Source: Comamonadaceae bacterium OS-4
Lineage (GTDB): Bacteria; Pseudomonadota; Gammaproteobacteria; Burkholderiales; Burkholderiaceae_C
Assembly (NCBI GenBank): GCA_027924025.1
Contig: AP026970.1
Coordinates: forward strand, 1,696,501-1,760,500
Direction of reading: 5' to 3'
DNA: 64,000 nucleotides
Shown: positions 35,118 through 64,000 of the stretch, in pieces
Layout of the letters: every line of letters begins with the position of its first letter
Position numbering within the stretch: the first letter of the stretch is position 1
The notes under the pieces: model-generated
Told to the model about the DNA's origin: nothing
Databases searched by the model: none
What the model saw: only the letters and a program-made list of their open reading frames with translations
Made by a program: the position numbers and the translations under genes

Positions 35118-36122
35118 TCAGATCCGGCCTTCCTCCACCGCATGGCATGCGACGCGAATGCCATCGAGTTTTTTCATTTCCGGCTTTTCACTCTTGCAGC
35201 GCGCATTGGCATGCGGGCAGCGCGGATGAAACGCACAACCCGATGGCGGGTTGAGCGGGTTTGGCACTTCGCCCGCCACCGCCGTACGTGCGCGCCCGGT
35301 GTCGTGCATTTTGGGAATGGCGTCCAGCAACATGCGGGTGTAGGGGTGACGCGGGCTGTCGAACAGCGTGTGTTTGTCAGCCAACTCTACCAAGCCACCC
35401 AGGTACATGACCCCGACCTGGTCGCTGACATGCCGCACCACCGCGAGGTTGTGCGAGATGAACAGGTAGGTCAGGCCCTGCTTGCGCTGCAGGTCTTTCA
35501 TGATGTTGAGCACTTGTGCCTGCACACTCACATCCAGAGCGGACGTGGGTTCATCGCACACCAGAAACTCCGGCTGGGTCGCCAAAGCCCGGGCTATGGA
35601 AATGCGCTGGCGCTGGCCGCCCGAGAACTGGTGCGGAAACTTGACGCGGTCTTGCGCCGAGAGTCCGACAGACTCCAGCAGCTCGCCCACGCGTTGATCC
35701 AGGGCAGCTTGCTCACTCAGGATTTCATGCTCGATCAGGGGCTCGGCAATGATGTCACCCACTGTCCAGCGCGGATTCAGGCTCGCATAGGGGTCTTGGA
35801 ACACCATTTGCACCCGGCGGCGCAGTTTGCGTCCCTCGGGGGTTTTGAATGCGGCATGGGCGTCTTGCCCATCGAATTCAAAGCCGCCCCGGGTGGGTTC
35901 ATACAAACCGACCAGCAAACGCGCGACCGTGCTTTTGCCGCATCCGGATTCACCCACGAGCGCGAGGGTGGTGCCGCGTTCGATATCGAAGCTCACGCCA
36001 TTCACTGCCTTCAGCAGCATCTTGGGTTTGCGCTCGATCACCCGGTTCAGCCAGGGGGCAGAGACGTCAAAGGTCTTGGCGAGGTCAGTCGCCCTTACCA
36101 GCGGTTGTGCATCTTGGCTCAT
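35118..36122 (-). CDS. dppF: dipeptide/oligopeptide ABC transporter ATPase, DppF type (operon 1)
   Basis: A 334-residue ABC ATPase with Walker [10 protein letters not shown] (57-65), Q-loop FQDPYASLNPRWTVGD, signature [16 protein letters not shown] and Walker B VCDEPTSALD. The C-terminal oligopeptide extension has the cysteine motif GCAFHPRCPHANARC that is typical of DppF/OppF. It overlaps the upstream dppD-like gene by 4 bp. It is the last gene of a five-gene operon (receptor, two permeases, two ATPases) and energises import of a peptide or similar solute. Confidence 0.92.
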   Translation of the reverse strand: MSQDAQPLVRATDLAKTFDVSAPWLNRVIERKPKMLLKAVNGVSFDIERGTTLALVGESGCGKSTVARLLVGLYEPTRGGFEFDGQDAHAAFKTPEGRKLRRRVQMVFQDPYASLNPRWTVGDIIAEPLIEHEILSEQAALDQRVGELLESVGLSAQDRVKFPHQFSGGQRQRISIARALATQPEFLVCDEPTSALDVSVQAQVLNIMKDLQRKQGLTYLFISHNLAVVRHVSDQVGVMYLGGLVELADKHTLFDSPRHPYTRMLLDAIPKMHDTGRARTAVAGEVPNPLNPPSGCAFHPRCPHANARCKSEKPEMKKLDGIRVACHAVEEGRI

Positions 36123-59969: not shown

Positions 59970-61298
59970 ATGCATGACTACCCGGCGCTGATTGAGGCCT
60001 TGCGCGCGCAAGGCATTCATTCGCTCTTGCCTCAGTTCACCGATATCCACGGGGTCGCCAAGGGCAAGTTAGTCCCTGTGGCGAACTTGAAGGAGTGGGT
60101 AGAGGTCGGTGCTGGGTTCGCTGGGCCTAGCATCTGGGGTACGGGTTTGCCTAGGTTCGGTCCGCGCAGCGAGTACTACGGGCGCATCGTTCTGGACACC
60201 ATACGCCCTTTGCCTTTCATGCCCGGAGTGGCGCACGCTGTCTGTGATGGCTATGCCGGCGGCCTTCCATTGGAAACCTGCTCGCGGCAGTTGCTCCTGA
60301 AAGCCCTTGAGCGGCTGAGCTCGCGCGGCTGGACGATGTGGGTTGGCATAGAGCCTGAGTTCTTTTTGCTTCATAAGCGAAATGGCCGTTGGGTGATTGC
60401 CGACGACGGCGATCATCTGTCCAAACCGTCTTACGACCTGAAGTCGATACACCGCAACGTCGCCTATTTGGATGACATGCGCCAGACGTTGGTGAGTTTG
60501 GGTTTTGATCTCCAGCAAATCGACCATGAAGATGCGACAGGGCAATACGAGGTGAACTACCGATTTGACGACGCACTCGCCGCTGCAGATCGATTCATGC
60601 TGTTCAAGATCGCGGCCCATGCGGTGGCCGAACGGCATGGAATGGTGTTTAGCGGCATGCCAAAGCCCCTGGCCCATGCACCCGGTAGTGGATTGCATTT
60701 TCATGTCAGCATCACCAATGCGCAGGGGGAGGCGGTGTTCAGTAGTGAGCAGGACGCTCTGGGACTGAGCCCTTTGGGGCACCAGTTTGCAGCTGGTTTG
60801 CTGGCGCATGCGGATGCGCTTGCGGCGATTTGCGCACCCACCGTCAACAGTTACAAGCGTTTGGCGAGTAGTGCCAGTGCATCTGGGACGACCTGGTCGC
60901 CTGTGTGGAAATCGTATGGCAACAACAACCGGACCTGTCTGGTGCGCACAGTGGCGGGGCGCCTGGAATGGCGGCTGCCTGACCCGTCTTGCAACGTGTA
61001 TGCAGCGATAGCTGCCACTTTATTGGCAGGGCTAGACGGTATCGACAAGGCTTTAGTCCCTCCGGAGCCTTGCGATATGGATCTTTATGCGGTGGCGGCC
61101 AGCGGTGCCGCTTTACCGCCAGCGCTACCGCGCACCTTGATTGATGCACTTGACTGCTTGGCGAATGACACCGTGTTGGCTGAGGCATTGGGCCGTGAGT
61201 TCGTAGAGCAGTTTCTTGCTGTCAAGCGACAGGAGTGGAGCGAGTTTCATCAAGCTGTCAGTGATTGGGAATTAAATCGCTACGCGGATGCGTATTAG
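59970..61298 (+). CDS. glnT: type III glutamine synthetase-like ligase (GlnT family)
   Basis: A 442-residue GS-fold enzyme starting MHDYPALIEAL at 59970. Motifs are GIEPEFFLL, HEDATGQYEVNYRF, HAPGSGLHFHVSI, NSYKRLA and RTVAGRLEWRLPDPSCNVY. The sequence is like GlnT/type III-like GS, a group that includes gamma-glutamylmethylamide and other gamma-glutamyl-amine ligases, rather than housekeeping GlnA. Given its place after potFGHI and a second GS-like gene (puuA) in the cluster, it probably glutamylates another amine or polyamine. Lower similarity to puuA means they are not recent duplicates. Confidence 0.85.
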   Translation: MHDYPALIEALRAQGIHSLLPQFTDIHGVAKGKLVPVANLKEWVEVGAGFAGPSIWGTGLPRFGPRSEYYGRIVLDTIRPLPFMPGVAHAVCDGYAGGLPLETCSRQLLLKALERLSSRGWTMWVGIEPEFFLLHKRNGRWVIADDGDHLSKPSYDLKSIHRNVAYLDDMRQTLVSLGFDLQQIDHEDATGQYEVNYRFDDALAAADRFMLFKIAAHAVAERHGMVFSGMPKPLAHAPGSGLHFHVSITNAQGEAVFSSEQDALGLSPLGHQFAAGLLAHADALAAICAPTVNSYKRLASSASASGTTWSPVWKSYGNNNRTCLVRTVAGRLEWRLPDPSCNVYAAIAATLLAGLDGIDKALVPPEPCDMDLYAVAASGAALPPALPRTLIDALDCLANDTVLAEALGREFVEQFLAVKRQEWSEFHQAVSDWELNRYADAY

Positions 61299-61454
61299 CG
61301 GCGTGTGGTGTTCTTCGATTTTTTGCAACTTACATTCCGATGTCGCAATGTGGAAATCTCCTGCTTGATTCGACGTGTTTGATTTTCGGATCGTATGAAG
61401 TCATTTCATATTGCAGTACGCATCTGCTAAGTTATTGATTTTTAATGAGAAAAT

Positions 61455-61502
61455 TTATGTCTTATATAAGACATAAGATTGGACTTCTGTCTTATATAAG
61501 AC
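61455..61502. promoter_or_regulatory. two phased palindromes upstream of aceA
   Basis: GTCTTATATAAGAC occurs twice. The first copy sits inside a longer perfect 22-bp palindrome at 61455-61476; the second is at 61489-61502. Their centres are 30 bp apart, about three helical turns, and the second ends 64 bp before the aceA start. They look like a cooperative operator for a dimeric repressor or activator of the glyoxylate shunt; I cannot name the regulator. The rest of the 268-bp gap from glnT shows nothing else. Confidence 0.65.
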
Positions 61503-61566
61503 TTAAAATTCAGTCATCGACAGCGTCATGGCTGCCGAATCATTCAATCAACCTAGGAGTGTTCAC

Positions 61567-62898
61567 ATGCCGCAATCCATCAAAGAACAATTGAGCCGCG
61601 AACAGCAAATCGCAGCCCTGGAAAAAGACTGGGCGACCAATCCCCGCTGGAAGGGTGTGAAGCGCGGTTACTCCGCTGCAGACGTGGTTCGCTTGCGTGG
61701 CAGCGTGCAGCCTGAATACACCTTGGCTCAGCGCGGTGCCGAAAAATTGTGGGAAAAAGTCAACGGTGGCGCCAAGAAGGGCTACGTGAACGCGTTTGGT
61801 GCCATCTCTGCAGGCCAAGCCATGCAGCAAGCTAAGGCTGGCTTGGAAGCCGTGTACCTGTCTGGATGGCAAGTGGCTGCTGACGGCAACACATCCGAGA
61901 CGATGTACCCCGACCAGTCCTTGTACGCCTACGATTCGGTGCCGACCATGGTGCGTCGCATCAACAACACCTTCAAGCGCGCTGACGAAATTCAATGGGG
62001 TCGCGGTATCAACCCCGGCGACAAAGAGTTCATCGATTTCTTCTTGCCGATCGTGGCAGACGCTGAAGCAGGTTTTGGCGGCGTGTTGAACGCTTTTGAG
62101 CTGATGAAGAACATGATTGCATCGGGTGCAGCCGGTGTGCACTTCGAAGATCAATTGGCAGCTGTGAAGAAGTGCGGTCACATGGGTGGCAAGGTTCTGG
62201 TGCCTACCCGCGAAGCGATCGAGAAGCTAATCGCAGCGCGTTTTGCAGCAGACACCATGGGCGTGCCCACCATCATTCTGGCGCGTACAGACGCTGAAGC
62301 AGCCAACCTGATTACCAGCGATTACGACGAAAACGACAAGCCGTTCATCACCGGTGAGCGTACGCAAGAAGGTTTCTACCGTGTCAAAAACGGCTTGGAA
62401 CAGTCCATCAGCCGTGGCGTCGCCTACGCACCGTATGCAGACCTCGTGTGGTGCGAAACCGGCGTGCCTGACATCGGCTTTGCGCGTGAATTTGCCCAAG
62501 CGGTTCACGCGGCATGCCCCGGCAAGTTGCTGTCTTACAACTGCTCGCCTTCTTTCAACTGGAAGAAGAACCTCAGCGACAGCCAGATCGCGTCCTTCCA
62601 GGAAGACCTGTCCGCACTGGGTTACAAGTACCAGTTCATCACCTTGGCCGGCATTCACATCAACTGGTTCAACACCTTCCAGTTCGCCCATGCATACGCC
62701 CAGGGCGAAGGCATGAAGCACTACACCGAAATGGTGCAAGAGCCTGAATTCGCCGCACGTGAAAAGGGTTACACCTTTGTGTCTCACCAGCAAGAAGTGG
62801 GTGTTGGCTACTTTGACGATGTCACCACCGTGATCCAGGGCGGTTCCTCCTCCGTCAAGGCACTGACTGGCTCCACTGAAGAAGAGCAATTCCACTAA
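61567..62898 (+). CDS. aceA: isocitrate lyase
   Basis: A 443-residue enzyme that splits isocitrate to glyoxylate and succinate, the first step of the glyoxylate shunt. The catalytic KKCGHMGG (Cys) is intact, with [25 protein letters not shown] and [12 protein letters not shown]. The start [11 protein letters not shown] has TAGGAG upstream; an in-frame ATG at 61528 has no site. It stands alone between phased palindromes and a strong terminator. It lets the cell grow on the acetyl-CoA produced by the neighbouring catabolic modules. Confidence 0.96.
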
Positions 62899-62916
62899 GC
62901 AACCCGCTGTGGAGCG

Positions 62917-62952
62917 AAGGCCGGGCGGCTCACAAGGCGCCCGGCCTTTTTT
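62917..62952 (+). terminator. intrinsic terminator of aceA
   Basis: AAGGCCGGGCG and CGCCCGGCCTT make an 11-bp stem with a 10-base loop followed by TTTTTT, 18 bp after the aceA stop. It separates aceA from the thrS leader. Confidence 0.92.
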
Positions 62953-63006
62953 ATTGGGTAAAATAGAAACTCAACTTTGTATAAGAGCGAGAAAGGCAGT
63001 TTGGTT

Positions 63007-63048
63007 ATGACACCGCGAACTACTCCGGCAACATTCACTGTGCAATAA
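63007..63048 (+). CDS. thrS leader peptide (13 aa, five Thr)
   Basis: A 13-residue ORF, MTPRTTPATFTVQ, lies 106 bp before thrS. Five of its 13 residues are threonine (codons ACA, ACT, ACT, ACA, ACT), with a tandem ACT ACT at 63019-63024. A weak ribosome site (GAAAGG) lies 10 bases upstream. The ORF is followed by mutually exclusive hairpins and a terminator, exactly the organisation of amino acid attenuators such as the pheM leader of pheST. Ribosome stalling at Thr codons, when charged tRNA-Thr is scarce, would let thrS be transcribed. The function is inferred from structure. Confidence 0.7.
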   Translation: MTPRTTPATFTVQ

Positions 63049-63107
63049 GGCCGTAGTCCGCGCGTCTTGTGCGCAATCAGCTACCAAATTCATAGTAAAG
63101 CGCGGAC
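63014..63107 (+). promoter_or_regulatory. antiterminator/pre-emptor segments of the thrS attenuator
   Basis: Segment 1 (63014-63023, CGCGAACTAC, holding most of the tandem Thr codons) pairs with segment 2 (63053-63062, GTAGTCCGCG) at 9 of 10 positions. The overlapping segment GTCCGCGC (63056-63063) pairs perfectly with GCGCGGAC (63100-63107), which contains most of the 5' arm of the terminator. A ribosome stalled on segment 1 would free segment 2 to form the antiterminator; a ribosome at the stop codon (63046-63048) would cover part of segment 2 and let the terminator form. Confidence 0.7.
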
Positions 63108-63122
63108 CGTTCCGCGCTTTTT
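63097..63122 (+). terminator. thrS leader terminator (attenuator)
   Basis: AAAGCGCGGA, loop CCGT, TCCGCGCTTT and a run of T form a perfect 10-bp intrinsic terminator 32 bp before thrS, with no gene between it and the leader ORF. As a terminator in front of an essential gene it must be conditional. Confidence 0.85.
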
Positions 63123-63153
63123 GTTTTTCTGAATCCTCTTTTTAGACACCACC

Positions 63154-64000
63154 ATGATCAACATCACACTTCCTGACGGCTCCAAACGTGAATTCCCCGG
63201 CCCGGTAACTGTCGCTGAGGTCGCGGCCTCCATTGGTACTGGATTGGCCAAGGCTGCGCTGGCGGGCAAAGTGGACGGCAAGGTGGTCGACACGAGCTTT
63301 CAGATGTCAGCGGACAGTGCGTTGTCCATCATCACCGCCAAAGATGCAGATGGGCTGGAGGTCATTCGACATTCCACGGCCCACTTGTTGGCTTATGCCG
63401 TCAAGGAGTTGTTTCCTGATGCGCAAGTGACGATCGGTCCTGTAATTGAGCATGGATTCTTTTACGACTTCTCGTACAAGCGACCCTTCACTCCCGAAGA
63501 CTTGGTGGCCATCGAAAAGAAGATGACTGAGCTGGCGAGCAAAGATGAGCAGGTAGTTCGCCGCGTATTGCCGCGTGACGAGGCGGTGGAGTACTTCAAG
63601 AGCTTGGGTGAGCAGTACAAGGCGGAGATCATCGCCAGTATTCCGGCAAATGAAGATGTCTCGCTTTACCGCGAAGGCAAGTTTGAAGACTTGTGCCGTG
63701 GCCCCCACGTGCCCAGCACCGGCAAGCTCAAGCACTTCAAACTGATGAAGGTGGCAGGCGCCTACTGGCGCGGTGACCACAAAAATGAAATGTTGCAGCG
63801 GATTTACGGCACTGCGTGGGCCACCAAAGACGAGTTGCAGCAGTACTTGACCATGCTGGAAGAGGCCGAGAAGCGCGATCACCGCAAGCTCGGTCGCGAG
63901 CTCGATTTGTTCCATATTGACGAACACTCGCCCGGTACGGTTTTTTGGCATCCCAAGGGCTGGACGCTCTGGCAAGGTGTTGAGCAGTACATGCGCAAGG
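63154..64000 (+). CDS. thrS: threonyl-tRNA synthetase (3' end outside window)
   Basis: The first 282 codons are present. Residues 1-62 form the TGS domain ([20 protein letters not shown]). Residues 63-225 are the editing domain, with [11 protein letters not shown] and [10 protein letters not shown] carrying the His and Cys of the zinc-like proofreading site that removes mischarged Ser. The class II catalytic core begins near 245 ([24 protein letters not shown]) and is cut off at the window edge. It charges tRNA-Thr and is essential. The start has no strong Shine-Dalgarno. Its leader carries a putative Thr attenuator. Confidence 0.96.

Follow-up and report, generated by a model that had tools for sequence, protein, structure and literature searches.

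The window, the whole 64,000-nt stretch analysed here, ends inside thrS, the gene for threonyl-tRNA synthetase (ThrRS). The partial protein matches NCBIfam TIGR00418 (E 1.3e-67) and, being truncated, scores under the cut-off set for the whole protein; among the best 80 of at least 579 named loci it is nearest to ThrS of Rhodoferax bucti (96% identity). The isocitrate lyase gene (61528-62898) lies 5' of thrS, and the leader described below occupies the space between the two. A terminator-like hairpin at 62934-62948 belongs to the isocitrate lyase gene, so the second hairpin, at 63097-63120, is unnecessary for ending that gene. Behind thrS, one related locus (L002) carries a 178-aa ORF that, by eye, we take to be initiation factor IF3; a switch at thrS, if real, may extend to this candidate IF3 gene. 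The features of the leader region are:

62959-62964, + strand: putative -10 box, TAAAAT, named from its recurrence upstream of leader ATGs
62989-62996, + strand: GAGAAAGG, putative ribosome binding site of the leader ORF, from the conservation of GAAAGGC
63007-63048, + strand: leader ORF MTPRTTPATFTVQ, 13 codons with five Thr, read from the sequence and re-extracted
63014-63023, + strand: segment 1 (pre-emptor), within codons 3-6, 9 of 10 positions pairing with 63053-63062
63053-63063, + strand: segment 2, common to pre-emptor and antiterminator, from pairing and alignment
63097-63120, + strand: intrinsic terminator stem-loop, 10 pairs and a 4-base loop, a hairpin read from the sequence
63100-63107, + strand: segment 3, in the 5' arm of the terminator, forming the antiterminator with 63056-63063 (8 of 8)
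63118-63129, + strand: T-rich tract of the terminator, from the sequence
63154-64000, + strand: thrS, threonyl-tRNA synthetase (NCBIfam TIGR00418), continuing past the end of the window

The leader ORF reads ATG ACA CCG CGA ACT ACT CCG GCA ACA TTC ACT GTG CAA TAA, with Thr at codons 2, 5, 6, 9 and 11, and its stop codon lies 4 nt before segment 2. Each element that the sequence-only reading had placed here was recovered on re-extraction, namely the 13-codon ORF with five Thr codons, the 10-pair terminator stem with its T-run, the antiterminator (GTCCGCGC at 63056-63063 opposite GCGCGGAC at 63100-63107) and the pre-emptor (CGCGAACTAC at 63014-63023 opposite GTAGTCCGCG at 63053-63062); one minor correction concerns the centre of the pre-emptor helix, which falls at the CGA/ACT junction instead of on the tandem Thr codons. 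In dinucleotide shuffles of the window alone, an equally Thr-dense short ORF arose with p = 0.0013, the duplex of segment 1 with the middle with p = 0.013, that of the middle with the terminator arm with p = 0.015, and the 8-base perfect match with p = 0.013. The leader motif has one exact occurrence in this genome, at this leader, and two further sites with three mismatches. By itself the window is suggestive, and conservation among relatives settles the observation.

Conservation of the threonine leader

Relatives were taken from 150 genomes of the window's family (the window's included), 148 of them with a ThrS match. The 130 upstream regions examined leave out 20 genomes, two without a match and 18 with mostly the weakest or fragmentary matches, and among the 130 a few are truncated where the contig stops or start a few bases off the start codon. 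As the sequence-only reading had anticipated, Thr-rich ORFs are found in related genomes: a short ORF beginning M-T-P-R-T (rarely a variant) precedes thrS in 109 of the 130 family genomes and in 64 of the best 80 named loci. These make up a set of 173 leaders; the two sources overlap, some ThrS rows are identical, and the counts below come from related sequences without independence.

The search pattern requires purine-C at codon 2, CC at codon 3, CG at codon 4 and AC at codon 5, leaving third positions free. Thr at codons 2 and 5 is therefore partly built in, whereas the constancy of third positions is a finding, and evidence was drawn only from these positions and from codon 6 onward. Codon 2 is ACA in 171 of 173 leaders, codon 3 is CCG in all 173, codon 4 is CGA in 164 and CGG in 9, and codon 5 is ACT in 153. 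Outside the pattern, 129 of 173 leaders have Thr at codon 6, where every one of the four Thr codons is used (ACG 58, ACA 34, ACC 30, ACT 7), and 77 have Thr at codon 7. Most leaders (108/173) have 12 or 13 codons. The number of Thr codons ranges from 2 to 7, and the 18 of 173 leaders with only two count against an attenuator. Thr enrichment was also scored free of the pattern: short ORFs within the last 330 nt before thrS were scanned with a 6-codon window, and the highest Thr count was kept. At least three Thr in six codons were found in 73% of the 130 family upstreams versus 6% of shuffles; Ala reaches the same threshold in 43% of the upstreams and Arg in 33%. At least four Thr were found in 39%, the next highest of the amino acids tested being Ala at 8%.

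The frame, the start codon and a GAAAGGC block (>90% in a 164-row leader alignment) are conserved across leaders, an indirect sign that the leader may be translated. The window's version of this block, GAGAAAGG, is presumably complementary to the 16S rRNA tail; a sequence search for that tail found no match in this genome. Further upstream, 67 of 173 leaders have TAAAAT 20-90 nt 5' of their ATG, where shuffles would give 3.3, and in 39 of those 67 it lies at 47-51 nt (48 nt in the window). A scan for the sigma-70 consensus found no promoter. From the hexamer, a transcription start would be expected near 62971. The sequence-only reading had named a start downstream of 63048 as fatal to its proposal; judged by the recurrence of TAAAAT, the start more likely lies 5' of the ORF.

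The stretch ATG ACA CCG CGA AC is near-fixed in the family even where later Thr codons drift, and GGTT precedes the leader ATG in 169 of 173 leaders. We know of no amino-acid leader-peptide attenuator for which such near-invariance of the first five codons, at every nucleotide, would be usual. Besides serving as code and as one helix strand, these codons may carry a second signal, in which case thrS would be read by two inputs at one switch, an idea that we regard as doubtful; the signal may be a nascent MTPRT peptide, aiding ribosome stalling or working in trans, or else a site in the RNA, at the start codon, for ThrRS or another factor. The block of GGTT and the ACA codon 2 (63003-63013 and its equivalents) is nearly invariant, and no conserved helix could be assigned to it.

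In a sample of 200 genomes of the order, six from outside the family (f8, f10 and f39) carry the exact motif GGTTATGACACCGCGAAC (one free base), and seven (f3, f35 and f47) carry it altered at the first base alone. Other Burkholderiales families also have diverged Thr leaders, with Thr often after CGA (MTPLTTLERLIR, MRPPTTLQGKTR, MVPPTTTLGAFTA, MPRTHTTTGHFSRRG, MFKRTTTTRISR, MQRTSTKTITYLG, MQLNRTTTTS, MSARTSWLVTR and MTTRTTTAG). Among 66 other-family upstreams, made up of the top 26 beyond the family plus 40 hand-picked to spread over families, 15% hold at least four Thr in six codons (Ser 9%, Arg 5%); at least three are found in 36%, a threshold that is uninformative here since Val and Arg reach 39% each. 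Many thrS upstreams across the order show no convincing leader by eye. In other orders of the class, 29 upstreams, the best-scoring of 54 genomes with a match, hold Thr-rich short ORFs in 3% at either threshold, which is background, and the class-level motif search gave no exact match outside the family, with scattered sites of one or two mismatches. A blastn search against a phage collection found no phage relative of the leader.

As a separate observation, thrS and its leader are preceded by a tRNA-Val (GAC) gene in 13 of 13 hand-picked loci from other families of the order (L264, L265, L268, L269, L271, L276, L277, L280, L287, L290, L291, L300 and L320); L271 and L277 have the tRNA gene and a hairpin with no leader visible.

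The near-constant third positions of codons 2-4, together with GGTT before 169 of 173 ATGs, look as much like an RNA site as like code, and ThrRS might bind the RNA of its own leader, in the manner of the thrS operator of E. coli, with the ORF incidental. We consider this quite improbable: codon 6 remains Thr through changes of its third base, Thr codons persist in the different RNA of other families, the nucleotide ahead of GGTT is not constant, terminator loops are variable among leaders, and by-eye inspection of the leader sequences found no anticodon-like stem mimicking the anticodon arm of tRNA(Thr).

Competing helices and computed folding

For attenuation by a translating ribosome, the arrangement would work as follows. 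RNA polymerase would start near 62971, and a ribosome would begin the 13-codon leader. When charged Thr-tRNA is scarce, the ribosome would wait at the Thr codons, at codon 5 and also at 2, 6, 9 and 11, covering segment 1 and leaving segment 2 to pair with segment 3, so that no terminator would form and thrS would be transcribed. When Thr-tRNA is plentiful, the ribosome would reach the stop codon and leave; segment 1 would then pair with segment 2, and the terminator would form, ending the transcript near 63125. The analysis shows the ORF, the terminator, the complementarities with their conservation, and the direction in which computed folding changes; from there we infer that the leader is translated, that ribosomes stall on it, that transcription terminates there in vivo and that threonine governs the outcome.

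A terminator is present after 168 of 173 leaders. In the 164-leader alignment, 90% of cells are paired for the terminator versus at most 64% for slid versions, 81% versus 25-49% for the antiterminator and 70% versus 22-41% for the pre-emptor, the helices having been taken from the window itself, a choice that favours them over the slid versions. Two-sided changes exceed the slid controls for the terminator (72 versus up to 49) and do not for the antiterminator (52 versus up to 81) or the pre-emptor (34 versus up to 34). Complementarity within single leaders is modest: each helix reaches p <= 0.04 in 35% of 168 leaders, with a median p of 0.1; for the pre-emptor, p <= 0.05 in 31% of 109 family leaders.

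The terminator arm is changed in eight leaders, and segment 2 is matched in five of them. L158 has the whole helix replaced, with the arm AAGCGGCTTC and a segment 2 carrying the matching AGAAGCCG, and L171, L176, L110 and L023 have the arm ACGCGG with CCGCGT in segment 2; in L096, L127 and L210 the changed arm is less cleanly matched. Six aligned sequences have A at position 63100; four of these carry T at 63063, and five carry T at 63117. Changes in the competing stems, whose compensation the sequence-only reading had set as one of its tests, are matched in some lineages (five of the eight changed-arm leaders), against which stand the three less clean cases and the two-sided changes of pre-emptor and antiterminator, which do not rise above slid controls.

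Outside the family, where leaders were picked by eye as plausible (sets of 26, one of them without a terminator, and 28), the antiterminator reaches p <= 0.05 in just 4 of 25 leaders (combined p 0.006) and the pre-emptor in just 2 of 28 (combined p 0.055). Outside the family the pairings are thus weak, mostly short of significance, and the RNA mechanism is no more than a possibility there.

Folding with and without a ribosome was computed in a simplified model with fixed ribosome footprints and equilibrium folding. Averaged over 106 family leaders, upstream RNA holds segment 3 with a probability of 0.48 when the RNA is free, 0.86 with a ribosome at codon 5 and 0.68 with a ribosome at the stop codon. 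The codon-5 ribosome shifts this holding by more than 0.2 upward in 71 of the 106 leaders and downward in one; in 62 named leaders it goes up in 35 and down in none. Shuffling the 5' part takes the free value up to 0.76, the native value being lower in 85 of 106, and shuffling the middle takes the stalled value down to 0.76, the native being higher in 82 of 106. Computed folding in the family thus moves in the right direction, and in the model a ribosome at Thr codon 5 would free segment 2 to hold the terminator arm. For the window leader the probability is 0.60 in free RNA, 0.81 when the ribosome stands at codon 5 and 0.99 when it stands at the stop. These values, which count against an attenuator, require that the off state arise in RNA that is released or untranslated.

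Repeated loss of the leader

A ThrS tree of 115 rows requires 13 changes of the leader label, and well supported branches force at least seven of these; L061 (MTLRT) and six outgroup rows were hand-labelled as leader-bearing, and the bootstrap was unsettled. A leaderless genome occurs within the window's own genus (L084_G125). The leader has thus been lost repeatedly, which counts against the attenuator reading.

A terminator-like hairpin is retained in 27 of 36 leaderless upstreams from both sets, although in a few of these loci it may be a different hairpin; 20 leaderless upstreams also have a -10-like hexamer, from a loosely defined set, at most 70 nt before the hairpin. At L037, L055, L062, L065, L066, L069, L072 and L084 the leader ORF is absent, and TAAAAT is followed 26-33 nt later by the terminator-like hairpin, immediately ahead of thrS. 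The L055 contig is labelled as an Akkermansia muciniphila MAG and its thrS groups with Comamonadaceae; it is probably misbinned.

The retained hairpins would also suit a constitutive terminator that sets a basal level of thrS or ends upstream transcripts, with a fortuitous ORF. We hold this to be very improbable indeed: 109 of 130 family genomes keep the ORF, which is Thr-rich beyond its fixed part, segment 2 changes along with the terminator in some lineages, and the isocitrate lyase gene upstream has a terminator-like hairpin of its own. For an attenuator, a terminator that outlives repeated loss of its leader is an unusual feature, as are the invariant first five codons. Leader loss with the terminator kept offers natural comparisons for the role of each part.

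A probable charging sensor for thrS, and known systems

A T-box riboswitch would have left other traces. The sequence AGGGTGGNACCGCG, which we take to be the T-box sequence, has no leader match even at three mismatches; its matches across the window (38, against 36.7 expected) are at chance. Rfam matches up to E 5 over 61000-64000 include no T-box structure, consisting of weak, unrelated matches below gathering scores. Elsewhere in the window, AGGGTGGTGCCGCG at 35965-35978 is one mismatch from the T-box sequence, and such matches are at chance in the window. Firmicutes thrS genes use T-boxes (PMC2494555); for the window leader, direct reading of uncharged tRNA(Thr) by a T-box can practically be discarded.

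Very probably, then, the leader is a ribosome-mediated transcription attenuator that senses the charging of tRNA(Thr) and controls thrS, as the sequence-only reading had proposed; the Thr-rich leader conserved in the family, the terminator behind 168 of 173 leaders and the matched arm changes all support it. Such a switch would probably raise threonyl-tRNA synthetase when charged threonine tRNA runs short.

Leader-peptide attenuators of Proteobacteria include those of thr, his, leu, ilv, trp and pheST. The window leader shares their four-segment logic and cognate codons, and differs in its target, thrS; the mechanism would thus be classical attenuation. T-boxes bind tRNA directly and have no leader peptide. 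The E. coli thrS operator mediates translational autoregulation by ThrRS, without a leader peptide or terminator; the target gene is the same, but control there is by protein binding. Self-regulation by ThrRS is mentioned in PMC2965389, whose main text does not name thrS. The Firmicutes thrS T-box, like the switch proposed here, ties antitermination of thrS to threonine tRNA charging (PMC2494555).

Among the closest counterparts is thrL of Streptomyces lividans, a thrS leader peptide reported as an attenuator in PMC8079986, alongside leaders for alaS, trpS and leuS. It too is a short ORF with Thr codons upstream of thrS. Unlike the window leader, thrL has 18 aa with two Thr (MKRVRPFLETTPGFVPAR), lacks the MTPRT form, belongs to Actinobacteria and, as described there, lies on a leaderless transcript with no clear U-rich terminator (PMC8079986). 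Synthetase leaders, a thrS leader among them, are therefore not new as a kind. The earlier remark, which knew of no thrS leader peptide described in Betaproteobacteria, holds within the open library searched, where none was listed, and comparative surveys of attenuation may contain an earlier prediction; beyond Betaproteobacteria it falls to thrL (PMC8079986).

What would be new is a thrS leader in Burkholderiales, conserved and yet short enough for annotation to miss. If the attenuator reading is true, leader-peptide control of Burkholderiales thrS is a third route besides ThrRS control in E. coli and T-boxes in Firmicutes.
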